Source: Candidatus Roseilinea sp. (GTDB taxonomy: Bacteria > Chloroflexota > Anaerolineae > J036 > Brachytrichaceae). From it: a DNA stretch of 64,000 bases. The DNA lies in the NCBI GenBank assembly GCA_026003755.1, contig BPHV01000003.1, positions 1 to 64,000 of the forward strand, in the 5' to 3' direction. Under the pieces are notes generated by a model, which made no database searches, was not told where the DNA came from, and saw only the letters and a list, made by a program, of their open reading frames with translations. Shown here one piece after another: positions 3,981 to 37,560 of the stretch (its first letter is position 1; every line of letters starts with the position of its first letter). A program made the position numbers and the translations under genes.

Positions 3981-6917
3981 CTATCTTCCCTCCTTTTGCG
4001 GCGCGCGAACGTCGCCGGCGCGGATTGGGACGGTCGCCGGCGCAAGTTGCATGGGCGGCTCGGCGCGCTGGCGCAACTGCCAGAGCAGGCCGATCGCGAA
4101 CAACGCGGCCACCACCACGGCGTAGTTGGCGATCTCCCACGCGCGACGCTCACCTTCGGTCAACGGGCGCAAGGCGCGCGTCACCGTGCCGCGCGTGCGG
4201 ATGTCCAGCAAGTCCAACTCTTCCACCGTCCAGTCGGCCACGTTTTGCATGAATTGCAAGTTGTTCAAGTAGCGTTGTTGGCCGAGCTGCGCCGAGAGGT
4301 TCAGCAGCGCATCGTTCAAGAAGTCGGCGCTGCCGATGACCACCAGGCGCGCTGTGTCGGGCGATTGCTCGATGGTGGCGCCGACCGGGCGCACCGGCGC
4401 CGGCGTCGGCGTAGGCTCGGGCGTGGCGCCTGGCGCAGGCGTGGGGGCCGGCGTGGGTGTGGCCTGCAAAGGCGAGGGCTTGCCCTTGAAGAAACTCTCG
4501 AAGCTCCCCTGAATGGCAACGGCTAAATTGCGCGATTTGCGCTCGCCCTCCACGGGAAAGCCAAATTCGGGGTAAGCCTGAAAGTCGGGCTGTACGTTGG
4601 TGTTGTTGCGCACCCAGGATTGATCGGTGGAGCGGAGCAGCAATGTCACCTTGCGATTCGCGTTCTTCTGCTCATCCACTTCGATCGGCGAGACGAAATT
4701 CATCGTGACAGCCGGCAGCCGCGATACGATCGGGCTGGCGCGATCCATGCCGTTGGGACGCACATCCACGAAGAACGGGTAATTCACCGCTTGGATCTCG
4801 CGCACGATCAAACCGCCGATGTTGCGGTTGACCTCCACCGGGAATGGCTCGTTCTGCGGATCCATCACCAGGCCGCTGCCGAGCCTCACCCCGTAGTGCT
4901 CCAGCATCTCGGCCAGCCCGCTCTGCACCGGCTCGAGGATGGGCGAGCCGAAGCCGAGCATCAGCGCATAGCCGCCGCCGGCGATGACCACCGCGCCGCC
5001 TTGCATCAGGTATTGGTCAATGGCGTAGCGCGCTTTGTCGTCCAGGTTGCGCGGGCCGATGACGAGAAGCGCGTTCACGTCGGGCGGCACCTGGCCGGTG
5101 GAGAGGTCCACGTCGCGCACGGTGTATTCGCGGCTCAGTTGCTCGCGAATGAGCTGCCATGGGTTGGGGTTCGGCGCGCCGAACATGCTGGGCGTCGCGG
5201 GCGGCGTCCACAGACCGATGACGTTGAGGAAACCGCCGACGTTGCGCTTCAAAGCCGACTCCAGCGCGGTGCGAATGGACGACTCGGTGAACTCGCCTTC
5301 GGGATAGATGGGCTGTGTCTTGCCGTCCATCTCCAACAGCATGTTCAGGTAAAACGACTCCAAGCCGAAAAGCGAGACCGGTGTGGGGCGCAAGCCGTAG
5401 CGTTCCACCAGCATCTGACGGGTGAAGGTCACGTTGGGCTGATCGGGATCCACCACTTTGTATTCGAACTTGCCGCCGGATTTTTGCTGCAGTTCTTGGG
5501 CCACCTTCTCCATCAGCGCCGGCACGTCCTTGAACGCCTCGGGCAGCGTCTGGCGAGTGACGAGGATGGTCAGGCGGGCCGGCTGCTGGAGCGCAGCGAA
5601 GACCGACTCGACGCCGCGGAAGCCGCTGGTCACCTTCTTGATGGCGCGGGTGAGGTCGTATTCGAGGTTGCGCAAGCGCACATCTACCGTGCCGTCGCGG
5701 CGCTGCTCCACCTCGATCAAGTCGCGGAAGTTCAACACGGTGCTTTGGTCGCCGTAGCGCACCAGGATGTCGAAGTAGGTGTTAATGATGGACGCCTCGT
5801 AACGGCCGGCCACTTGCACCGGCGTAGGCTGAATGCCATACGCGCGCGCGGCCTCTGCCTCCAGGTTCGGGTCGGTGATCGGGTCCACGACCTCGGCGGT
5901 GACGCGCCCTCGTCCGGCAATCTGGTATTCCTGAAGCAAGTCGCGCACGCGCGGCGTCAGCGGGGCCAGCAGCGGGTGGGTCTTCTCGCTGATGTAGGCG
6001 CGGATGAGCAGCGGCTCCTGCAAGTCGGCGAGCAAATTCAGCGTGGCCGCCGAGAGGCTGAACTCGCGCTGGGCGGTCAAGTCGGCGCGCAAGGCCTGCA
6101 GCGGGCCCATCCATGCGTTCACGGCGATCAAGTTCAGCGCGACCAGGCCGCTCGTCAAGTGGGCGGCGCGCCGATATTCGGCCGAGCGCGGGCCGGCGCT
6201 CCAGCGCTTGCGGTCCAGCGACCAAGCGTTCAGCGTGAGGAAGATCAGCGCCAGGGTGACGTAGTAAACCAGGTCGCGCAGGTCAATCACACCGCGCTCG
6301 ATGCTCTCGAAGCGGCTGCCGGTGCCCAGCGCGCGGAAGAACTCGGCCGTGCTGCCGCTCACGAAATCCACCACCAGGGGGCTGCCGATCAAGTAAAACG
6401 CCCCGCCCACCAAGGCGGTGAGGATCAAGGCGACGATCTGGTTATCGGTGCGCGAGGAGACGAACAAGCCGATCGCGGCATAGGCCGAGGCCATCAACAG
6501 CGCCGCGACGTAGCCGCCGATCACCGGGCCCCAGTCCAAGTTGCCCAACAGCGCCACGGTGAGCGTGAGCGGCAAGGTGAGCGCCAGCGCCAGCGCCACA
6601 AGCCCCATCACCGCCAGGAACTTGCCGGCCACCAGTTGCCCGGTGGGCACCGGCAGGGTCAGCAGCATCTCCAGTGAGCCGCTGCGTTGCTCCTCGCTCC
6701 ATTGGCGCATGGTGAGCGCCGCGACGAGGAAGATGAGCAGCAGCGGCATCCAGCGGAACAAGGGGCGCATCTCGGCCACGCCCCGGGCGAAGAACGTCTC
6801 GACCCAGAAGAAGACGAGCAGGCTCGCTGCCAGGAACACGCCGATGAAGATCAACGCCTGCGGTGAGCTAAAGTAGTTGTTCCATTCTTTGCGCGCAATC
6901 GCCAGGATGGTCCTCAT
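3981..6917 (-). CDS. ABC-2 permease fused to GldG-like extracytoplasmic domain
   Basis: About 978 aa. Residues ~1-250 form an ABC-2 permease module with about six hydrophobic segments and the cytosolic motif RSGSLEMLLTLPVPTGQLVAGKF. The remainder is GldG/ABC_transp_aux-like, with a long extracytoplasmic part and a C-terminal membrane segment (ANYAVVVAALFAIGLLWQLRQR). Near the C-terminus there is a Pro/Thr linker (ATPTPAPTPAPGATPEPTPTPAP). In Bacteroidetes gliding systems GldF and GldG are separate proteins, whereas here they form one polypeptide. The start was placed at 6917 because GGAG sits 7 nt upstream; an in-frame TTG at 6941 is possible. The gene lies between the ATPase and the DUF4340 gene in one minus-strand operon. 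Confidence 0.8.
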   Translation of the reverse strand: MRTILAIARKEWNNYFSSPQALIFIGVFLAASLLVFFWVETFFARGVAEMRPLFRWMPLLLIFLVAALTMRQWSEEQRSGSLEMLLTLPVPTGQLVAGKFLAVMGLVALALALTLPLTLTVALLGNLDWGPVIGGYVAALLMASAYAAIGLFVSSRTDNQIVALILTALVGGAFYLIGSPLVVDFVSGSTAEFFRALGTGSRFESIERGVIDLRDLVYYVTLALIFLTLNAWSLDRKRWSAGPRSAEYRRAAHLTSGLVALNLIAVNAWMGPLQALRADLTAQREFSLSAATLNLLADLQEPLLIRAYISEKTHPLLAPLTPRVRDLLQEYQIAGRGRVTAEVVDPITDPNLEAEAARAYGIQPTPVQVAGRYEASIINTYFDILVRYGDQSTVLNFRDLIEVEQRRDGTVDVRLRNLEYDLTRAIKKVTSGFRGVESVFAALQQPARLTILVTRQTLPEAFKDVPALMEKVAQELQQKSGGKFEYKVVDPDQPNVTFTRQMLVERYGLRPTPVSLFGLESFYLNMLLEMDGKTQPIYPEGEFTESSIRTALESALKRNVGGFLNVIGLWTPPATPSMFGAPNPNPWQLIREQLSREYTVRDVDLSTGQVPPDVNALLVIGPRNLDDKARYAIDQYLMQGGAVVIAGGGYALMLGFGSPILEPVQSGLAEMLEHYGVRLGSGLVMDPQNEPFPVEVNRNIGGLIVREIQAVNYPFFVDVRPNGMDRASPIVSRLPAVTMNFVSPIEVDEQKNANRKVTLLLRSTDQSWVRNNTNVQPDFQAYPEFGFPVEGERKSRNLAVAIQGSFESFFKGKPSPLQATPTPAPTPAPGATPEPTPTPAPVRPVGATIEQSPDTARLVVIGSADFLNDALLNLSAQLGQQRYLNNLQFMQNVADWTVEELDLLDIRTRGTVTRALRPLTEGERRAWEIANYAVVVAALFAIGLLWQLRQRAEPPMQLAPATVPIRAGDVRAPQKEGR

Positions 6918-21847: not shown

Positions 21848-23140
21848 ATGAATACGCTCACACTCCAAAATCTGAAAGACATCGTTTCTGGCAACGCCGC
21901 CGCCTTCCGGCGCGTGGTGAAACTAGAGCCGGTCGGTGGGCCGGGTGCCAAGGTGTTCCCGCCCACTTACGAAGGCGGCAAATACGCCACTGAAAAGCGC
22001 TGGTTTAACGGCAAGCTTGTAGATTGTGTGCTGCTGGATTCAGTGCAATCGCAAGCGAATCGAATGGAGTTGGCGCTGAAAGAGGCCGTAGACGAGGGGC
22101 GAATTTCGCTGCCGGTAATCACTGTGGACTTCTCCAAAACAGAAGCTGCTTTCGTCCGCAGGGTCACAAGTCTTGAAGCCCCACATCGCATTGCCGATGC
22201 AATTCTGCGCGATAGCGAGTGGCGCAACAGAGTGCCGTTTCGCAAAACGTCTGCGGGGAAGGCGTTGGACAACGCGAGCCTGCAAAATGCCACGGAGCTG
22301 TTTGGGTATTGCCCAACCGCGCTGGTGTTTGGCATGTGGTACTCCACCGGCGCACGCGGCGGACTGGGAGTCAAATTCCCGCGCGCGATCGTCTCGGAGA
22401 TCATCGGTATCGGCGCAGTGCCCGGCCAGCGCACGGGTGGACGGTTGGATCCGCTGAAAATCACTTCGAGTGCAGGGCCTATTTATGAGACTCAAGACGG
22501 CGACTGGACTCTTGAATCTCAAAAGGCAAAAACTAAGGCAGATAAGAATGGGAATATAGTTCCTACGCTGTACGGCAAAAAGGGCAAACCCTCCGAGATC
22601 AATCACGGCAATGTAACCCCCTCTTTAGTGGTTCAGAAAGACCAGAACGGGAATCCGATTGATAGAAGTGGTACCCCAACCACACGCATGGATGAATGGA
22701 TTCCGATTGGCGGCTTCACCATTGACTACGCTCAGCAAATCACCGTGATTTCGCTTCCGACCCTGCGTCGTCTGCGCTTCCCAGTAAAAGGCAAAAACGA
22801 TGCAGATACCGCCGCGCGCGTGGCGCTCACGGCGTTGGCATTGTGCGCGGCAACGTTGAGCGGCGAAAAGGGTTACAACCTGCGCTCGCAATGTGACCTC
22901 TATCCTCCAGACGGCGTGCCGGCATGGGAAGTTGTCGGCCTCAATCGGACTTTCTCCACTTTCTCCCTAGACGCTGAGAGCGCAATAAAACTTTTCAACC
23001 AGGCTGTAAAAGAGGCAAAGGGAGCTGGATTGCCTTGGCACTCAGAAGGTTTGACGTTGGTTCCGCGCGAAGATCTGGTTGCACTGATTGTTCGTAGCCG
23101 CGCGACCAGTGATGGGGATCAGGGCGAGGAGGAGGCTTAA
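21848..23140 (+). CDS. csb1: Type I-G CRISPR backbone subunit Csb1 (Cas7 family)
   Basis: 430 aa. It matches the GSU0053/Csb1 Cas7-like family: FPPTYEGGKYATEKRWFNGK near the N-terminus, LLDSVQSQANRMELAL, and the central HRIADAILRDSEWRNRVPF. Cas7 subunits coat the crRNA spacer in the Cascade complex. A strong AAAGGAG lies 9 nt before the ATG. The stop overlaps the csb2 start (TAATG). The Cas operon order from here is csb1-csb2-cas3-csb3-cas4/1-cas2. An insert with Lys/Asn-rich sequence (KAKTKADKNGNIVPTLYGKK) is less GC-biased than the rest. Confidence 0.88.
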   Translation: MNTLTLQNLKDIVSGNAAAFRRVVKLEPVGGPGAKVFPPTYEGGKYATEKRWFNGKLVDCVLLDSVQSQANRMELALKEAVDEGRISLPVITVDFSKTEAAFVRRVTSLEAPHRIADAILRDSEWRNRVPFRKTSAGKALDNASLQNATELFGYCPTALVFGMWYSTGARGGLGVKFPRAIVSEIIGIGAVPGQRTGGRLDPLKITSSAGPIYETQDGDWTLESQKAKTKADKNGNIVPTLYGKKGKPSEINHGNVTPSLVVQKDQNGNPIDRSGTPTTRMDEWIPIGGFTIDYAQQITVISLPTLRRLRFPVKGKNDADTAARVALTALALCAATLSGEKGYNLRSQCDLYPPDGVPAWEVVGLNRTFSTFSLDAESAIKLFNQAVKEAKGAGLPWHSEGLTLVPREDLVALIVRSRATSDGDQGEEEA

Positions 23141-27629: not shown

Positions 27630-28646
27630 ATGGCAACTGTTGAAATCATCCTCACCGGTCCCAGTGGGGACAACCCACTAGGCTTTCTGTGCGCGCTCGG
27701 CGCACTCCGCACCTTGAGCAACGCCTGGCCCGACGCCGAAGTGAAGATGAAGTGGCAGCAGATCCCGCTTCAATCAGTACAAGCCAATTTTGGGCTTCAA
27801 GAGCCCGACGCCGAAGTGAAGATGAAGTGGCAGCAGATCGGCACTCCATGGCGGCCGGTGCTGCGCGCCAGCCATGCCAATTTGGATGACAAGGAGGAGG
27901 CCGGCCAAAAGCAAGTTGTCGTCAATGCAATATTCAACGAGTTGAAGAATATGGACGACTGGCATCCAGCCAAAAAGTGGCAAGACACGCATAACATTAA
28001 ACCTGAAGACTATCGCGGCTATTCCTTACAAGCGCAAGACAGGCTTTTCGATCCGAGAGACCATCGTTCGGCAGAATGGGCAGCCACAATCGCTTGCGAT
28101 GCCATCATCCGCGACAAAGCTGTAGAGGACACAGCCTTTCGTACGATGAGCGGCCAGGGGCATCAACATTTCCTGAAGCAAATTAAGAGCCTGAAAGAGA
28201 AAATTCAAGTCAGCCATCTGGAAGAGGCTTTGTTCGGGCCGTGGCAATACAAGGATGACAAGCTCAACCTGCGCTTGGACCCAACTGAAGATCGCCGGCA
28301 CGCCTTGCGTTGGAAAAGCCCGGACAAAGACCCCATCAAAACAGTGTGGGGAGCAAACTGTCTTGCTGCCGAAGGTCTGCCAATGTATCCCGTCTTTCCG
28401 CAAGGAAGAAGGCTAAGGACGGTGGGGTTTCGGGGCAACAGTAAAGATGCGGTCTTTTGGACCTGGCCAATCTGGAATGCCTTTGCCGATGTGTCATTGA
28501 CTCGTTCTTTGCTGGCTTTGCCGGCTTTGCAAGCAGACCGGCCTGCGCGCGCCGAATTGTCGCCTCTTGGAATTGTCGAGGTTTATCGCGCTCAGCGCAT
28601 CCTGATTGACAGATACCGGGTGTTTACTATGGGACAACCCCACTAG
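27630..28646 (+). CDS. csb3: Type I-G subunit, Csb3-like (position after cas3), with internal duplication
   Basis: 338 aa. It starts MATVEIILTGPSGDNPLGFL and contains LRLDPTEDRRHALRW, VWGANCLAAEGLPMYPVFPQ and the C-terminal LGIVEVYRAQRILIDRYRVF. From memory this is the accessory family found beside or fused to Cas3 in type I-G/I-U loci. The order csb1-csb2-cas3-csb3 supports the name, but assignment is by context and recall, not a search. Residues ~34-70 contain a duplicated 11-residue block PDAEVKMKWQQ separated by 14 residues, created by a 75-bp insertion-like event (27728-27839) that keeps the frame. No Csx17 large subunit is present in the operon, so this protein may be the only candidate for a Cas8-like role. 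Confidence 0.6.
   Translation: MATVEIILTGPSGDNPLGFLCALGALRTLSNAWPDAEVKMKWQQIPLQSVQANFGLQEPDAEVKMKWQQIGTPWRPVLRASHANLDDKEEAGQKQVVVNAIFNELKNMDDWHPAKKWQDTHNIKPEDYRGYSLQAQDRLFDPRDHRSAEWAATIACDAIIRDKAVEDTAFRTMSGQGHQHFLKQIKSLKEKIQVSHLEEALFGPWQYKDDKLNLRLDPTEDRRHALRWKSPDKDPIKTVWGANCLAAEGLPMYPVFPQGRRLRTVGFRGNSKDAVFWTWPIWNAFADVSLTRSLLALPALQADRPARAELSPLGIVEVYRAQRILIDRYRVFTMGQPH
27728..27839 (+). repeat. 36-37 bp direct duplication flanking a 38-39 bp insert inside csb3
   Basis: Two identical 37-bp copies lie at 27728-27764 and 27803-27839. They are separated by a 38-bp unique sequence (39 bp if the duplication is counted as 36). The period is 75 bp. The CRISPR array in this window has 36-bp repeats and 35-39 bp spacers, giving periods of 71-75 bp. 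The structure is what a Cas1-Cas2 integration at a non-CRISPR target would leave. Because 75 is divisible by three, the gene stays open. Confidence 0.85.
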
Positions 28647-28710
28647 GAACGCCCTCGGCTACGCCTGCCACTTTGGCCTCGGCCTCTTCCTCCCCGCCGG
28701 CACCAAGTAA
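28624..28710 (+). pseudogene. Gene remnant with Gly-rich GLGLF ending upstream of cas4-cas1
   Basis: In the frame +1 relative to csb3, sequence reads LLWDNPTRNALGYACHFGLG, then LFLPAGTK and TAA at 28708-28710. The CHFGLGLF ending resembles C-termini of Cas6/RAMP-type proteins with a glycine-rich loop. Upstream, the frame is closed within csb3. It overlaps the last codons of csb3, so it looks like the tail of a deleted gene. Assignment is tentative. Confidence 0.35.
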
Positions 28711-28713
28711 CCC

Positions 28714-30493
28714 ATGTCCGACGACGCCCTGCTCGCCCTGCCCGACCTCGTCCCGGCCCGCATGGTGAACGAGTTCGCCTATTGCCCGCGCCTGGCCTAT
28801 CTGGAGTGGGTGCAGGGCGACTGGGCCGACAACGCCGACACCGCCGACGGTCGTTACAAACACCGGCGCGTGGATCACGCCGCCGGCCGCCTGCCCGCCT
28901 CTCCCTTCATCTCCCCCTCTCCCCTTGTGGGAGAGGAGGCAGGGGGTGAGGGGTCTGAAGGCAGTAAGAGCACACAGCAGCCAACAGACAACCTTGAACC
29001 CATCCATGCCCGCTCTGTCTGGCTCTCCGCTGAAGCAGAACACCTCACCGCGCGCATTGACCTGCTCGAAGGCGACGGCCAAACCGTGACGCCGGTGGAC
29101 TACAAGCGCGGCAGCGCCCCCGACCTGCCCGAAGGCGCCTGGGAAGCCGACCGCGTGCAACTGTGCGCCCAGGGCCTGATCCTGCGCGCCAACGGCTACA
29201 CCTGCGCCGGCGGCGTGATCTACTACATCGAGTCCAAAACCCGCGTCAGCGTGCCGTTCGACGACGCCCTGATCGCCCGCACGCGCGCCCTGGTGCAAGG
29301 GCTGCGCGAGATGGCCGCCGCCGGCCAAATCCCCCCGCCGCTGGTAGACAGCCCCAAATGCGTGCGCTGCTCGCTCGCCCCCATCTGCCTGCCCGACGAA
29401 GTCAACCTGCTCAATCCGCCTGCACCCACTCCACCGGCAGCCCAGCCCCCGCCGCGCCGCTTGATGCCGGCCCGCGACGACGCCGCCCCCCTCTACGTCA
29501 GCGAGCCGGGCGCCCGCGTCAGCAAACGCGGCGAAGTGTTCGAGATATGGCTCAAAGACCAACGCCTGGGCGAGGCGCGCATCTTCGAGACCTCGCACCT
29601 CGCTCTGTTCGGCAGCGTGCAGATCACCACGCCCGCGCTCGTCGAAGCGCTCGACCGCGGCATCACCATCGCCTTCTTCTCCATGGGCGGCTGGTTCAAG
29701 GGCTTGGCGCATGGCCCGGCCCACAAAAACGTCGCCTTGCGCATGGCGCAATACCGCGCCGCCTTCGACCCCGCACGCAGCCTGGCCCTGGCGCGCGCGT
29801 TCGTGAGCGCCAAGATCCGCAACTGCCGCACCCTGCTGATGCGCAACCACACCGCCCCGCCCAAAGACACCCTGGCCGCGCTGATGCAGCTCGTTAAAGA
29901 TGCGCGCGCCGCGTCCGACCTGCCCGCGCTGTTGGGCATCGAGGGCAACGCCCGGCCGGCTCTACTTCGGCGCCTTCGCCGGCATGCTCAAGCCCCGCGC
30001 CCCCGCCTCCGCTGCCGGATGGCAGTTCGACTTCAGCGGGCGCAACCGCCGCCCCCCGCGCGACCCCGTCAACGCCCTGCTCTCCTTCGCCTACAGCCTG
30101 CTGGCAAAAGAGCTGACCGTGACGGCCCAAATCATCGGCTTCGACCCCTACCTGGGCTTCTATCATCAACCCCACTACGGCCGGCCCGCGTTGGCCCTGG
30201 ACGTGATGGAGGAGTTCCGCCCCCTGGTGGCCGATTCGGTCGTGCTGACCGCCATCAACACCGGCGTGATCAGCCTCGATGACTTTATCGCCAGCGGGCC
30301 GGCGGTGGCGCTGACGCCGGCCGGCCGCAAAAAGTTCATCCAGGCCTTCGAAAACCGACTGCAAACCGAGATCACCCATCCCATCTTCGGCTATCGCATC
30401 AGCTATCGGCGCGTGCTGGAGGTGCAACTGCGCCTGCTGGGCCGCGCGCTCGGCGGCGAGATCGCCGCCTACCCGGCTTTTACCACCCGTTGA
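28714..30493 (+). CDS. cas4-cas1: Cas4-Cas1 fusion (spacer acquisition), frameshifted in the Cas1 domain
   Basis: The N-terminal Cas4 domain has Cys24 ([10 protein letters not shown]), the RecB-type Asp/Lys motifs ([15 protein letters not shown]) and the Cys cluster at residues ~216, 219 and 225 ([11 protein letters not shown]), consistent with a [Fe-S] PAM-sensing nuclease. Cas1 follows from ~residue 265 ([20 protein letters not shown]). The catalytic Glu lies in LLGIEGNA (GAG at 29941). Directly after it one extra base (29950-29959) shifts the frame. The rest, [15 protein letters not shown] to the His/acidic motif [20 protein letters not shown], continues in the next frame to the TGA at 30491. 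A palindromic repeat adds ~30 residues to the Cas4 domain (28901-28990). The fusion is typical of type I-G. Confidence 0.87.
28903..28953. repeat. REP-like palindromic element inserted in the Cas4 domain
   Basis: The core is a perfect 8-bp stem CCTCTCCC and GGGAGAGG (28916-28923 and 28929-28936) with a 5-nt loop. An outer imperfect pairing joins CCCTTCATCTCCCCCT with AGGGGGTGAGGG. The element is in frame and encodes [14 protein letters not shown], a peptide often seen where such dispersed repeats enter genes. It sits between the Cas4 N-terminal Cys and the RARSVWLS-like segment. Confidence 0.7.
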
Positions 30494-30509: not shown

Positions 30510-30803
30510 ATGCGCACCCTCTACATCGTCACCTACGACATCGCCGATGATGATCGGCGCTGGCGCAAAGTGTTCAAGCTGATATACGGATACGGCGACC
30601 GGCTACAGTACTCGGTGTTTCGCTGCGCGCTGTCCGACCGCGAGCGGGTGGAGCTGGTGGAGAAGCTTTCGCGCGTGATCAAGTCCGGCGAAGATCAAGT
30701 GTTGTTCTTCCCGTTGGGGCCGGTCGGCGGCGTGGACGAAAAGCGCATTCATGCAGTGGGGCGCGCCTATCCTGCTCTACGCCAGGGGGCGACGATCCTC
30801 TGA
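30510..30803 (+). CDS. cas2: CRISPR-associated Cas2
   Basis: 97 aa. MRTLYIVTYDIADDDRRWRK gives the first beta strand with the conserved Asp, and LQYSVFRCALSDRERVELVE and DQVLFFPLGP follow. Cas2 dimers bridge two Cas1 dimers in the spacer integrase and set the geometry of insertion. It starts 16 bp after the cas4-cas1 stop and is the last cas gene before the leader. Confidence 0.93.
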   Translation: MRTLYIVTYDIADDDRRWRKVFKLIYGYGDRLQYSVFRCALSDRERVELVEKLSRVIKSGEDQVLFFPLGPVGGVDEKRIHAVGRAYPALRQGATIL

Positions 30804-31113: not shown

Positions 31114-31330
31114 GTTTCCACGCCTAACAAGGCGTGGCCCCATTGAACTAAAAATTATGCCTTGTCGCCGAACGGCGTCGAAGTTGGCGAGGATCCTAAC
31201 AAGGCGTGGCCCCATTGAACTAAAAATTATCGTGAGCGAAATACTGCTTCGCTACTTCCTTGAACGCCCTAACAAGGCGTGGCCCCATTGAACTAAAAAT
31301 TATCGGCACACTCGCAAAAGAGCGCGATGG
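31114..31330 (+). repeat. Register-shifted repeats at the leader end of the array
   Basis: The first copy (31114-31158) has both the normal 5' part GTTTCCACG and an 11-nt 3' extension CTAAAAATTAT. The second (31195-31230) and third (31268-31303) copies lack GTTTCCACG and carry the extension, giving 36-bp units that start at CCTAACAAGG. The units are therefore moved 9 bp downstream relative to all other repeats, while length stays 36 and the two spacers are 36 and 37 bp. The next spacer (ending 31330) contains the same extension, showing where it came from. Confidence 0.9.
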
Positions 31331-32679
31331 GTTTCCACGCCTAACAAGGCGTGGCCCCATTGAAGGTGCAGCTTGCAAACGCCATTCGCCAAAATCGGCC
31401 GGGGTTTCCACGCCTAACAAGGCGTGGCCCCATTGAAGGTCCTCGTGCGGGTCAATTGGTGCGCCGGCTATTGGGGTTTCCACGCCTAACAAGGCGTGGC
31501 CCCATTGAAGGTCGTATGTCGTTGATAGACAGCGCGCTGATTACCGCGTTTCCACGCCTAACAAGGCGTGGCCCCATTGAAGGCGATAGGGATAGGTGGG
31601 CCGGTATGGGGGCGGATAGTAAGTTTCCACGCCTAACAAGGCGTGGCCCCATTGAAGGTAGTGCTTGTTGGTCAGACTAATACAAGCGTAGACATGGTTT
31701 CCACGCCTAACAAGGCGTGGCCCCATTGAAGGGCCATGATTCGAGCGGCGATGCAGGTCTTGCAGGGGGAGTTTCCACGCCTAACAAGGCGTGGCCCCAT
31801 TGAAGCTATCAAGCCCCAACGTTGGTTAGCGCTGTTGTGCCAGGTTTCCACGCCTAACAAGGCGTGGCCCCATTGAAGCATGTTGCCGCGCATAACGCTC
31901 GGCAACCGCTCAACAAGTTTCCACGCCTAACAAGGCGTGGCCCCATTGAAGCTGCACAGTCGTTTGCGTCAACCCACTGACCAGCTCATGTTTCCACGCC
32001 TAACAAGGCGTGGCCCCATTGAAGCACATGGCGGTTAGTGTTAATCGTAAGCTCAGACTCGGTTTCCACGCCTAACAAGGCGTGGCCCCATTGAAGCGAC
32101 ATCTCCCAGAGAACCCGTTTGCACGTCAGCGGGTTTCCACGCCTAACAAGGCGTGGCCCCATTGAAGCGACAACCAGCGCATTGGCGCGTTCTATCAAGC
32201 CCCAACGTTTCCACGCCTAACAAGGCGTGGCCCCATTGAAGCCCAGTGTTCGGTGAAACGATGACATCGGCGGTCAATGTTTCCACGCCTAACAAGGCGT
32301 GGCCCCATTGAAGCACACATCATGGCAATCAAAGCCCGACCTGATTTCTGGTTTCCACGCCTAACAAGGCGTGGCCCCATTGAAGCAAGAAGCCGCGGGG
32401 GCGCGTGTGACGGCCGTACGTCGTTTTCACGCCTAACAAGGCGTGGCCCCATTGAAGCTCGGCCAACTCCCAGCGGTTGAAGAAGGGCGGCAGAAAGTTT
32501 CCACGCCTAACAAGGCGTGGCCCCATTGAAGCATCACCACTGCTTGAACAGGCAGGTCGGCCTGATGCTGGTTTCCACGCCTAACAAGGCGTGGCCCCAT
32601 TGAAGCACGCCGTCAAAGGCAAACAGCGCCGGACGGCCAGCAAGTTTCCACGCCTAACAAGGCGTGGCCCCATTGAAGC
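31114..32679 (+). CRISPR. Main CRISPR array, 22 repeats and 21 spacers
   Basis: The repeat is 36 nt, beginning GTTTCCACGCC and ending CCCCATTGAAGC. It holds a perfect 8-bp stem (CCACGCCT and AGGCGTGG) with loop AACA. In-register repeats start at 31331, 31404, 31476, 31548, 31623, 31697, 31771, 31844, 31917, 31990, 32062, 32133, 32207, 32279, 32351, 32423 (one C-to-T change), 32497, 32571 and 32644. Spacers are 35-39 bp. The three leader-proximal copies are displaced (see 31114-31330). The last two bases of the repeat are GC in the 13 older copies, GG in the next six, and CT in the youngest three. The array belongs to the adjacent type I-G cas operon. Confidence 0.97.
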
Positions 32680-32708
32680 ATTGAAGCCTCTTGAAGCTTG
32701 AAGCCTTG

Positions 32709-32715: not shown

Positions 32716-34148
32716 GGGTGTAGCGCAGATTTGTGACAGTCACCGCCGGCGGCACTGACGGATTGCGGCGTCTAGCCGATTGCTGTGCAGTTCACACAAG
32801 GCGGCGAGCATGCCGCCGTTCCCAGCCCCGACAGGGGCCTTTCAAACGCCGCTGTATCACCGTCTTGCAGCCGCTCTCCACCACACCGCTGCCAATCGGC
32901 AGCCCTTGCGCGCGGAACTCTGCATAACGCATCCGCTCCGCATTGTTGGCAAAGTAGCCCGCCAGCTCCGCCGCCTCAGCCTGAGGCAGCCCGCGCACCG
33001 CTTCCGCAACGGCCTGCGCTCCGCCGGCCCACAGCGCGTCCAGTTGTCTCTCCGCCCAGGCCTTCGCCGTATCCGGCTGCTGAGGCCAGGCCCGTTCGGC
33101 CGCGTGGTGCACGTGCTGAGCCGCATGCGCCCAGTCCACAATCTGGATGGCGTCAGGGAAGTTGGCGCGTGTGATGCGCTCAATCCAAGCCGCCCCCGTC
33201 GTTGACCGATGTCACACGCGCGCAGTCCGGCAACCCCCGTCGCAGCCCCTCGACATACTGCCGGCGCGCCATGTCGTCTGCATCCCCCAGCGTCGCCTGA
33301 TAACTGTGCCGTTCGAGCTTGACGACCGCTTTCTGCGCCGCATGACGGGCGCTCACCTGCTCGGTCTGCTGTCGGCTCACCCTGACCTGCGAGATGGCCG
33401 TCACTTTGACTTCCTTCCACCCTTCGCCCCGAATGCGGATGAATACCCCATCGGTCGAGACATTGCCCTGTTCCTTGACCGGATCAATCCGGCATGGCGT
33501 CATCTCAGGCTCCTCCCCGCTTGCCGGCGCAACGGCATGGGCCTGCGCCACTTCGGCCTCGCGCATGGCATCAATCTTCGCTCCCTCGCCTTCACTGATG
33601 CGCCGCACGCTGTCCCCCGATATCTGCCAGCCGGTGAGCACCTGATACGCCTGCGCCGCGCGGTCAAACGACGGCGCTTACTGCAACGCCGCCCGTGCTG
33701 CGCCTTCACTCCACCGGTCCGCTCTCAGGCGCAGCACGTGATCCAGGGGGAAAAGCCGTCTGGCCGCACCCGTTCGGACAGACGTAGTAGCTACGCTCGA
33801 TCCGGCTTTGTCCTTCCAAGCCGTTGACCTGCTTGCCGCGCCGGCCTTTCAGCCGCATCGGCTTGCCACAGCTCGGACAGAGCGGCTGGGTGATGTCTGC
33901 GCGGTGCCGACGTTGATTGATCAGAATCTCCAATCCACGACCCATCAGCACCTGTCGCAGGGCTTCGATCTCAGCGAACGTGGCGTCCGGATGCTGGTCA
34001 TACCATGTCTCTAATTCTTCATAGGCCTGGGCGGCCAGGGCCAGGAACTGTTCGCGCCGCTGCGCGTGGCTGGATACGGTTGATGGTTTCATGTCCCCTA
34101 TTTTGCTCCCGCTGCAGAAAAAGTCGCCCACAAATCTGCGCTACACCC
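32716..34148 (-). mobile_element. ISKra4-like insertion sequence (degenerate), 1433 bp
   Basis: Perfect 20-bp terminal inverted repeats begin GGGTGTAGCGCAGATTTG at 32716 and end with the complement at 34148. A 7-bp duplication AACCTTG flanks it. It carries one transposase on the minus strand, broken by several mutations. It entered the CRISPR array just beyond the last intact repeat. Confidence 0.87.
32740..34092 (-). pseudogene. ISKra4-like transposase, disrupted
   Basis: The N-terminal part starts MKPSTVSSHAQRREQFLALA and has a zinc-ribbon-like CPSCGKPMRLKGRRGK and ERSYYVCPNGCG. The frame is lost at a T4C5 run just after the zinc ribbon, then there is an in-frame TAA (~33677), an extra G near 33195 in what would be the second catalytic Asp region (SVNDG), and a final shift near the C-terminus. 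Readable segments STDGVFIRIRGEGWKEVKV, VDWAHAAQHVHHAAERAW and LPIGSGVVESGCK correspond to the first Asp, the region after the second Asp, and the Glu of the DDE triad. Confidence 0.8.
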
Positions 34149-34157
34149 AACCTTGAA

Positions 34158-35740
34158 GGGTGCATTTCAGTTTTGGGGCAGGAGCGCACTCAAAAAGCGC
34201 GCAGATTGACCTCGCCCGCGTGAACATCCGAAGATCACGGACGTCGTCGTGGATTGACAGACCGGCATCTCAGCGAGGGACGACAAGCCGCAGGCCGCTG
34301 CGGGCATAATGCGAGGACAGTTATATCCGGGAGGTGTGCCATGAAAGAGACCAGGGCGACGACACAGCGCAAGTCAGCGTCTTCGCCACGGCGAGGCGAG
34401 ATGAAAGCGGTGCTGATGCGAGAAGCGGAGGCCGTGATCGATGAATTGCTGGACTGGAATGAACAGGCCGGCCAGCCGACGCTGACGCAGATCGAGGAGG
34501 TGATCCTGAAGCTGCGCAAGCGGATGAGCGAGGCGATGGCGGTCACCGTGATCGAGGCGCAAGAGGCGAGCCGCCCGGTGCCGGGGCCGGTCTGTCCGCA
34601 GTGCGGGCGGGAGATGCACTCCAAAGGCCGCAAGCGGAACACGGTCGAGAGCCGCGTGGGCAGCCTGTCCGTGCAGCGAGGATACTACTACTGTGAAGCC
34701 TGCCGCGTCGGGCTTTTCCCCCCCTCGATCGGCAGCTGGCGGTGTGGGACAAGCACTGGAGCGAACAGGTGGCCAAGCAGGCGGTGTGGCTGAGCGGGCT
34801 GGTGACGTTTGAGGAAGCGGAGCGCATCCTGGGACAGGTGGGCGGGCTGGTCATGTCCGACAGCAGTGTGTGGCGGCGGGTGGCGGTATGGGGAGAGCGC
34901 TTTCGGGGGGTAGAAGCCACACAACGCGCCCTGGCGGACGGCGGCGGGCGCACCGCCGAGGCGGCGACCGTGCCGGGCAAGATGGGTGTCGCCCTGGACG
35001 GAGCAACGGTTCATGTGCGTGGCGAAGGCTGGAAGGAACTCAAGGTGGGGTGCGTGTTCGATGTCGTGCTACAGCCGACTTGGGATCGCCAGAGCGAGGA
35101 GTGGGTTGACACGGCCCACGCCGTCCGCGCCGGCTACGTCGCCCATCTGGGCGGGCCGGAACGGTTCGGCCAGGTGTTGTGGACGGCCGCCCAACGTCGC
35201 GGCTGGACGCAGGCACGTGACACCATCGCCTTGGGCGATGGCGCCGCGTGGATTTGGAATCTGCTCAGCGAGCACTTCTACGACAGCCGACAAGCCGTGG
35301 ACTGGTATCACGCCAGCCAGCATCTGTGGCAGGTTGCTCACGGCCTGCACGCAGCAGGCAGCCCGGCGGCCCAGGCTTGGTATCGTGCCCACGAAACCCT
35401 CTTGTTCCAGGGCCATGCCGACCGGATTGCGGCTCGACTCCGTCAGGCCGCCCATACCCATCCCCAGCACGCCGAGATGCTACGGCGTGAAGCGGGCTAC
35501 TTCGGGAACAACCGGCGACGCATGCAATACCAGAGCCTGCGCGAAGATGGCTGGCCGATCGGCAGCGGCGTGGTCGAGAGCGCCTGCAAGCAATTCCGTC
35601 ATCGCTTCGCCGGTAGCGGGATGCGCTGGAGCCGTCCCGGCATCGAGCGTCTGCTCCCGATTCGGGCGGCCGTCATGGGTCACGCCTTTGACGCGATGTG
35701 GTCTGCTGCCTATTCTTCGCCCCCAAACTGAAATAGACCC
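34158..35740 (+). mobile_element. ISKra4-like insertion sequence, copy A, 1583 bp
   Basis: The ends are GGGTGCATTTCAGTTTTGGG at the left and the complement of GGGTCTATTTCAGTTTGGGG at the right, matching at 19 of 22 positions. ACCTTGAA (8 bp) flanks both sides (34150-34157 and 35741-35748). It is followed directly by a second nearly identical copy in the same orientation. Confidence 0.9.
34341..35731 (+). CDS. ISKra4-like transposase copy A, in two frames joined at T4C7
   Basis: A GGAGG site precedes the ATG at 34341. The first frame (MKETRATTQRKSASSPRRGE, zinc-ribbon CPQCGREMHSKGRKRN, VQRGYYYCEACRVGLFPP) runs into a TTTTCCCCCCC run at 34714-34724. The main part continues in the -1 frame as LDRQLAVWDKHWSEQVAKQA to 35731. 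It holds the DDE triad: Asp in GVALDGATVHVRGEGWKELK, Asp in LGDGAAWIWN, and Glu in GSGVVESACKQF. An uninterrupted protein would need one more C in the run, by slippage or frameshifting. Confidence 0.82.
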
Positions 35741-35748
35741 ACCTTGAA
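35741..35748. repeat. Shared 8-bp target duplication between the two IS copies
   Basis: ACCTTGAA occurs at 34150-34157, 35741-35748 and 37332-37339, that is before, between and after the two tandem copies. The last one is preceded by one extra C. Confidence 0.8.
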
Positions 35749-37330
35749 GGGTGCATTTCAGTTTTGGGGCAGGAGCGCACTCAAAAAGCGCGCAGATTGA
35801 CCTCGCCCGCGTGAACATCCGAAGATCACGGACGTCGTCGTGGATTGACAGACCGGCATCTCAGCGAGGGACGACAAGCCGCAGGCCGCTGCGGGCATAA
35901 TGCGAGGACAGTTATATCCGGGAGGTGTGCCATGAAAGAGACCAGGGCGACGACACAGCGCAAGTCAGCGTCTTCGCCACGGCGAGGCGAGATGAAAGCG
36001 GTGCTGATGCGAGAAGCGGAGGCCGTGATCGATGAATTGCTGGACTGGAATGAACAGGCCGGCCAGCCGACGCTGACGCAGATCGAGGAGGTGATCCTGA
36101 AGCTGCGCAAGCGGATGAGCGAGGCGATGGCGGTCACCGTGATCGAGGCGCAAGAGGCGAGCCGCCCGGTGCCGGGGCCGGTCTGTCCGCAGTGCGGGCG
36201 GGAGATGCACTCCAAAGGCCGCAAGCGGAACACGGTCGAGAGCCGCGTGGGCAGCCTGTCCGTGCAGCGAGGATACTACTACTGTGAAGCCTGCCGCGTC
36301 GGGCTTTTCCCCCCTCGATCGGCAGCTGGCGGTGTGGGACAAGCACTGGAGCGAACAGGTGGCCAAGCAGGCGGTGTGGCTGAGCGGGCTGGTGACGTTT
36401 GAGGAAGCGGAGCGCATCCTGGGACAGGTGGGCGGGCTGGTCATGTCCGACAGCAGTGTGTGGCGGCGGGTGGCGGTATGGGGAGAGCGCTTTCGGGGGG
36501 TAGAAGCCACACAACGCGCCCTGGCGGACGGCGGCGGGCGCACCGCCGAGGCGGCGACCGTGCCGGGCAAGATGGGTGTCGCCCTGGACGGAGCAACGGT
36601 TCATGTGCGTGGCGAAGGCTGGAAGGAACTCAAGGTGGGGTGCGTGTTCGATGTCGTGCTACAGCCGACTTGGGATCGCCAGAGCGAGGAGTGGGTTGAC
36701 ACGGCCCACGCCGTCCGCGCCAGCTACGTCGCCCATCTGGGCGGGCCGGAACGGTTCGGCCAGGTGTTGTGGACGGCCGCCCAACGTCGCGGCTGGACGC
36801 AGGCACGTGACACCATCGCCTTGGGCGATGGCGCCGCGTGGATTTGGAATCTGGTCAGCGAGCACTTCTACGACAGCCGACAAGCCGTGGACTGGTATCA
36901 CGCCAGCCAGCATCTGTGGCAGGTTGCTCACGGCCTGCACGCAGCAGGCAGCCCGGCGGCCCAGGCTTGGTATCGTGCCCACGAAACCCTCTTGTTCCAG
37001 GGCCATGCCGACCAGATTGCGGCTCGACTCCGTCAGGCCGCCCATACCCATCCCCAGCACGCCGAGATGCTACGGCGTGAAGCGGGCTACTTCGGGGACA
37101 ACCGGCGACGCATGCAATACCAGAGCCTGCGCGAAGATGGCTGGCCGATCGGCAGCGGCGTGGTCGAGAGCGCCTGCAAGCAATTCCGTCATCGCTTCGC
37201 CGGTAGCGGGATGCGCTGGAGCCGTCCCGGCATCGAGCGTCTGCTCCCGATTCGGGCGGCCGTCATGGGTCACGCCTTTGACGCGATGTGGTCTGCTGCC
37301 TATTCTTCGCCCCCAAACTGAAATAGACCC
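35749..37330 (+). mobile_element. ISKra4-like insertion sequence, copy B, 1582 bp
   Basis: It is nearly identical to copy A. I noticed one indel in the C run (6 versus 7) and four substitutions, all amino-acid changing: Gly to Ser near 36722, Leu to Val near 36854, Arg to Gln near 37014 and Asn to Asp near 37098. Terminal repeats are the same as in copy A. The tandem, same-strand arrangement with a shared target duplication suggests a recent event. Confidence 0.9.
35932..37321 (+). CDS. ISKra4-like transposase copy B, in two frames joined at T4C6
   Basis: This copy has the same organisation as copy A: start ATG at 35932 with GGAGG upstream, zinc ribbon, then a TTTTCCCCCC run (36306-36315) where the frame changes to the catalytic part ending at 37321. 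Here the run has six C, so the shift needed is +1 (or two more bases), unlike copy A. The catalytic part has a possible GTG start at 36284 (VKPAASGFSPLDRQL) and could be made separately. DDE residues are intact. Confidence 0.82.
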
Positions 37331-37375: not shown

Positions 37376-37560
37376 GTTCTCGCGCTTAACCAGGCGTGGC
37401 CCCATTGAAGCGACCGCTGGGAATAGGCCGATAACGACGGTTGGACAGTTTCCACGCCTGGTTAGGCGTGGCCCCATTGAAGCAACCGCATTTGCACCGG
37501 ATTAATCCTGGTGCAGAGTTCGGTTTCCACGCCTAACGAGGCATGGAAACACATTGAAGC
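37376..37560 (+). CRISPR. Degenerate trailing end of the array, three repeats
   Basis: Repeats at 37376-37411, 37448-37483 and 37523-37560 are separated by 36- and 39-bp spacers. The first has lost the 5' stem half (TCGCGCTTAACC). The second keeps the stem but has loop GGTT in place of AACA. The third is 38 nt and altered in the middle (AACGAGGCATGGAAACAC). Decay at the leader-distal end is usual. They were separated from the main array by 4.6 kb of insertion sequences. Confidence 0.9.

Follow-up and report, generated by a model that had tools for sequence, protein, structure and literature searches.

Probable off-target spacer integration into the csb3 (cas8g) gene of a type I-G CRISPR-Cas system in Candidatus Roseilinea

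In a type I-G CRISPR-Cas locus of a chloroflexotal host, from the genus of Ca. Roseilinea, the csb3 gene carries one sequence twice. The two copies of GCCCGACGCCGAAGTGAAGATGAAGTGGCAGCAGATC (27728-27764 and 27803-27839) agree at 37 of 37 bases, recur with a period of 75 bp and enclose CCGCTTCAATCAGTACAAGCCAATTTTGGGCTTCAAGA, a 38-bp sequence that we call X1. How did a unit with the proportions of a CRISPR repeat, spacer and repeat come to lie inside a protein-coding gene? Our answer, to which we give a probability of roughly 0.87, is full-site off-target spacer integration by the Cas4/1-Cas2 integrase of this type I-G locus or of a close relative. Positions refer to the window, the whole stretch of 64,000 nucleotides that was analysed. 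Within this 64-kb window the csb3 duplication is the sole direct repeat outside arrays with at least 22 identical bases at a spacing of 40-120 bp.

The type I-G locus and the duplication in csb3

Profile matches define a complete type I-G CRISPR-Cas locus in the window, comprising cas7g, csb2, cas3g, cas8g, a cas4-cas1 fusion, cas2 and an array. Its features, with the profiles or other sources that support them, are as follows.

21848..23140, forward strand: cas7g (csb1); PF09617, TIGR02570
23140..24633, forward strand: csb2 (cas5-cas6); PF09609, TIGR02165
24630..27626, forward strand: cas3g; TIGR02621
27630..28646, forward strand: csb3 (cas8g), type I-G effector subunit, 338 aa; NF049934, PDLC01514, ORF list
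27728..27764, forward strand: first target-site duplication copy, 37 bp (or 36 bp and one chance base); single copy in homologues
27765..27802, no strand assigned: spacer-sized insert X1, 38-39 bp; absent from eight homologues, single occurrence in its own genome
27803..27839, forward strand: second target-site duplication copy
28714..30493, forward strand: cas4-cas1 fusion, split by an extra C near 29955; NF049935 over two frames
30510..30803, forward strand: cas2; PF09827
31114..32679, forward strand: CRISPR array, canonical 36-bp repeat GTTTCCACGCCTAACAAGGCGTGGCCCCATTGAAGC, spacers of 35-39 bp
31123..31303, forward strand: three leader-proximal units with the 36-bp repeat CCTAACAAGGCGTGGCCCCATTGAACTAAAAATTAT, shifted by +9 bp

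The coordinates of the csb3 unit, which the preliminary description had given as two identical 37-bp copies around 38 bp with a period of 75 bp, proved exact on re-check. The same account had stated that the 75-bp gain keeps the frame, and the 338-aa ORF does stay open across the whole unit. It matches the type I-G Cas3-adjacent family NF049934 (E 9e-69) and the PADLOC profile for Cas8g, PDLC01514 (E 3e-82), and the best stretch of both matches begins at residue 56-59, right after the insert. An AlphaFold2 model of the window Csb3, built with two sequences, was uninformative (mean pLDDT 30.8). X1 carries GCTTCAAT at 27767-27774, the reverse complement of the 3' end of the repeat (ATTGAAGC, the crRNA handle), possibly by chance.

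In all three Roseilinea genomes (that of the window, G002 and G007) the array repeats measure 36 bp and the spacers 35-39 bp, and for the window these lengths, measured again, agree with those first reported. Since the csb3 duplication measures 37 bp and the array repeat 36 bp, one base is ambiguous, and the unit can be divided either as 37 + 38 bp or as 36 + 39 bp. The leader-proximal end of the array is itself out of register. Here the repeats at 31123-31158, 31195-31230 and 31268-31303 are separated by spacers of 36 and 37 bp, and the shifted repeat, CCTAACAAGGCGTGGCCCCATTGAACTAAAAATTAT, consists of 25 bp of the normal repeat followed by 11 bp of the first old spacer. Three shifted units that still have a 36-bp repeat indicate that two spacers were added at a wrong boundary and that the 36-bp length was kept. 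In G002, what looked like a shifted unit at the distal end of the array was rejected, being two neighbouring spacers that are nearly identical. At its far end (32673-32706) the window's array gives way to short microrepeats rich in TTGAAGC, CATTGAAGCATTGAAGCCTCTTGAAGCTTGAAGCC. Farther on, at 34147-37321, stands a tandem pair of almost identical copies that contain a transposase and are spaced by 1590 bp; beyond the pair, at 37376, 37448 and 37520, are two or three degenerate repeats, which it separates from the main array.

The adaptation module of the window bears a lesion. The first part of the cas4-cas1 fusion lies in the 28714-30282 frame and the second at 29900-30493, and the frameshift between them is a 1-bp difference near 29955, where the window reads GCAACGCCCGGCCGG and G007, the third Roseilinea genome, reads GCAACGCCGGCCG. 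The extra C would be an error of sequencing, or else would mark function lost at a later time; given this 1-bp frameshift in cas1, the type I-G system of the window may be inactive now. A relic of the csb2 C-terminus, ALGYACHFGLGLFLPAG, lies between csb3 and cas4-cas1 (28630-28710). It also follows csb3 in G007 and in the congeneric locus L002 described below, and it resembles the intact csb2/cas4-cas1 junction of G012 and G019. To judge from this relic, the effector module was apparently swapped in beside an older adaptation module.

Empty sites and a second insertion

Alignment of csb3 homologues confirmed the 25 extra amino acids that the preliminary description had suspected: the segment is absent from all eight aligned sequences (L002, G007, G026, G027, G132, G351, G064 and G313). 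The csb3 of G007, which is 70% identical to that of the window at the DNA level, runs from GCCTG directly into a single GCCCGACTCCGAAG...AAATCGG, a clean empty site. Eight homologues without the 25 residues point to an insertion accompanied by target duplication. Direct repeats are, of course, the usual product of tandem duplication or replication slippage, and such an event within csb3 would also leave two copies side by side if the unit's second half had later diverged. A plain tandem copy would, however, repeat the insert too. This argument, already made in the preliminary description, is upheld, as the sequence downstream of the second copy continues as in the homologues and aligns to them without a gap. 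Slippage would also require that the insert diverge fully, yet the two copies are 100% identical. Moreover, X1 matches within the window no better than shuffled sequence does (at best 23 of 38 bases in csb3 or the window, against a shuffled mean of 21.6 and maximum of 25) and does not occur elsewhere in its own whole genome at up to 3 mismatches, so that slippage has no template. We consider it the least credible of the explanations weighed here.

A second unit, new relative to the earlier reading of the window, is found in the csb3 locus (L002) of Ca. Roseilinea sp. NK_OTU-006, a congener whose genome is G002 here. There GTTGAAAAGGATGGAAAAGCATCCGGCTCAGTGTTG is duplicated exactly over 36 bp (L002:6237-6272 and 6309-6344) around an insert of exactly 36 bp, CCCGACGAGCGAGAACACGTCGCCCTCCAGGCCGTC, which we call X2. 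The unit is in frame, adds 72 bp or 24 residues, and lies about 46 codons downstream of the site in the window. The csb3 of G007, 93.4% identical to that of L002, has an empty X2 site. X1 and X2 are both absent from G007 and the other homologues, L002 lacks X1, and the window lacks X2. We read the insertion in L002 csb3 as an independent second event in the same gene. The target duplications, 37 (36 + 1) bp in the window and 36 bp in L002, correspond to the 36-bp repeat length, and the inserts, of 38-39 bp (X1) and 36 bp (X2), fall within the spacer range of 35-39 bp.

As both genomes are draft assemblies, and as the window cas1 contains a possible sequencing indel, a chimeric join or a misassembled repeat in these metagenome-derived sequences deserves mention. 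Such an artefact would not preserve the frame or equal the repeat length. Two separate assemblies, with different sites and different inserts, show the same exact 36-bp arithmetic, both in frame and without stops. We regard misassembly as highly improbable, hardly more credible than slippage.

Sources of the inserts and choice of target

The searches for a source of X1 were broad. X1 was absent from 27 genomes of the family; a blastn comparison with phages and plasmids gave merely chance-level matches of 17-21 bp; and viral contigs, searched for the exact sequence and for degenerate codon patterns in two frames, contained none. No match was found with one codon pattern in 396 genomes of the class or with another in 28 genomes. 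Six viral contigs do share a 19-bp stretch of X1, which is read there in the frame of a phage protein with GFNQYKP(Y/F)VD. This candidate was rejected: the remainder of X1 does not match (23-25 of 38 bases agree over the full length), and for 19 bp such a match is about what chance gives. The comparison of the insert with phage, plasmid and host sequences that the preliminary description had proposed thus yielded no source for X1.

X2 is different in this respect. It matches 36 of 36 bases inside a 615-aa ORF of G007, which we take, from the motifs DEVHLLP and GLTATLVREDG, to be a DEAD/XPB-type superfamily 2 helicase. The orthologues agree with X2 less closely: 33 of 36 bases in G001 and G008, 31 of 36 in G002's own copy, and 30 of 36 in that of the window's genome. 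A perfect match within a helicase gene of G007 means that X2 is DNA captured from elsewhere and not a product of slippage, and with this separate chromosomal source slippage is already refuted for the second event.

The relation of X2 to G007 extends to the gene around it. A patch of about 1.3 kb covering the G002 csb3 (L002 about 5601-6900) is 95-97% identical to G007, whereas the rest of the cas locus is about 82% identical; the gene, perhaps with its insert, was therefore probably exchanged from a G007-like strain. The recombination patch in L002 does not reach beyond csb3 and its edges. That a G007-like contaminant in G002 might explain the perfect X2 match was considered and rejected, as 4 kb of core sequence from the same contig are closest to the window's genome (92-95% identity) and only 84-89% identical to G007. 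X2 may have been captured in a G007-like cell, with gene exchange to follow, or it may have been taken from G007-like DNA entering G002. Under either route, X2 would be captured chromosomal DNA of the genus.

The source of X2 lacks an adjacent TTN, the PAM that type I-G interference is reported to use (PMC9638904); its flanks are CGG and, on the other strand, GAG. The PAM is a weak criterion here, since off-target products do not strictly need one. Ordinary chromosomal DNA without a PAM is also what would be expected of filler DNA in a repair-associated event, in which fill-in of a staggered break, with a gap of about 36 nt, was accompanied by end joining that captured a foreign fragment some 36-38 nt long. 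The CRISPR-like sizes would then be coincidental. Against such a coincidence, spacer and repeat sizes appear in both of two independent events, and no other sizes appear in about 886 kb. We find repair improbable, though not quite so improbable as misassembly.

The survey of repeats covered the window and 822 kb of its own and relatives' sequence (about 886 kb in all, as sampled stretches), and no further unit of this shape was found there outside arrays and minisatellites. The other repeats of comparable length and spacing were CRISPR arrays, minisatellites and long-period repeats, including one in L018 of 61 bp at 103-bp spacing. In seven plasmid type I-G loci (Methylomagnum, Rhodothermus, Streptomyces, Thermus, Cereibacter, Azotobacter and Actinomyces), no such units were found outside arrays. 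Both known events thus fall within one gene of 0.94 kb, and two insertions in one gene exceed what random placement predicts. Because the sample is small, and because the second case was found by examining csb3 homologues, this recurrence is suggestive and not proven.

Candidate reasons why csb3 was struck twice are chance, physical proximity to the adaptation genes, and selection on an interference gene. In base sequence, the likeness of either target to the leader-repeat junction does not seem clearly greater than that of other positions in csb3. The window target is average among csb3 positions in this regard, and the L002 target ranks 16-33 of 896 at the best 1-bp offset, a rank uncorrected for the offsets and strands tried. 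A 5-bp inverted repeat, of a kind present at 14% of csb3 positions, lies near the centre of the L002 target, and the window target has none. Selection would account for the location in its own way: the integrase would strike many sites, and insertions in cas8g would be kept as they dampen interference, for instance once self DNA has been captured, or diversify the effector. This explanation invokes the same mechanism as the one we prefer and differs in the reason for the location. It accords with two independent insertions in one effector gene, and with the origin of X2 in Roseilinea chromosomal DNA, which would make a self or near-self spacer if placed in an array. Both insertions are in frame, however, suggesting that the protein was retained rather than lost, and the cases number two; we consider selection unlikely, if worth keeping in mind. 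With similar reserve, it is conceivable that in the Roseilinea lineage spacer-sized DNA is inserted time and again, in frame, into csb3/cas8g by the integrase of the same type I-G system, the recurrence reflecting selection or a physical hot spot and not chance. If so, the adaptation machinery would mutate and extend an interference protein, with such changes selected, for example, to dampen autoimmunity after self-capture.

Proposed mechanism and comparison with known systems

For off-target spacer integration, we propose that the integrase attached a 38-39-bp prespacer to the two strands of csb3, at positions separated by 36 bp. When the gaps were filled, the 36-bp target would have been copied, and a single repeat-spacer-repeat unit would remain within the gene. 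Because the net gain of 75 bp keeps the frame, csb3 can still code for a Cas8g that is 25 residues longer, and this enlarged protein might or might not work. An event of the same type would have struck csb3 independently in another Roseilinea species, with Roseilinea chromosomal DNA as the prespacer. The geometry of the products points to Cas1-Cas2 as the enzyme. On homologues, lengths and the second event, the integration into csb3 first put forward in the preliminary description is very probably right as to mechanism; its attribution to the resident system is plausible and held more loosely, cas1 being frameshifted in the window.

Natural off-target events of CRISPR integrases have seldom been documented, and they bear on how far Cas1-Cas2 acts as a genome-wide mutagen. 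Two independent natural events in one genus provide a clean case that is testable in vitro. Since these events strike the system's own effector gene and keep the frame, they also suggest a way for integrases to extend a protein with newly acquired coding sequence.

Nivala, Shipman and Church reportedly described, in 2018, type I-E overexpression in E. coli together with a small number of putative natural cases from Yersinia pestis and Sulfolobus islandicus. The csb3 units share with those off-target integrations a spacer-sized insert, a repeat-length target duplication and a site outside arrays. Unlike the type I-E cases in E. coli, they belong to a natural type I-G system with a Cas4/1 fusion and show no clear mimicry of the leader-repeat junction; they also differ in lying twice in the system's own effector gene, both in frame, with one chromosomal source traced. 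Integration outside arrays by overexpressed E. coli Cas1-Cas2 is documented (Nivala et al. 2018, as cited in PMC11788318 and PMC9456107).

Ectopic spacer acquisition inside the CRISPR1 and CRISPR3 arrays of Streptococcus thermophilus (PMC7999890) is likewise integration in the wrong place by the same type of enzyme. Those events occur at true repeats within an array, whereas the target here is a protein-coding gene. In type II-A systems, and in types I-E and I-B in work cited there, the repeat length is set by a ruler: the second joining takes place at a fixed distance from the first, with a motif inside the repeat (PMC6895254). No such ruler motif was identified in csb3, unlike in those systems. 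The behaviour is nonetheless alike, in that wrong positions still give a fixed length, as with the array of the window, whose shifted register keeps 36 bp, and with the duplications of 36 bp in csb3. The Cas4/1-Cas2 of the type I-G system of Methanosarcina barkeri is the same adaptation module, and in plasmid assays in vitro its smear of products suggested non-specific integration (PMC10504553); there the setting was in vitro, whereas here it is a natural genomic event. In Roseilinea, off-target spacer integration would be a natural process of a type I-G system that has struck the system's own effector gene two times and kept its frame.
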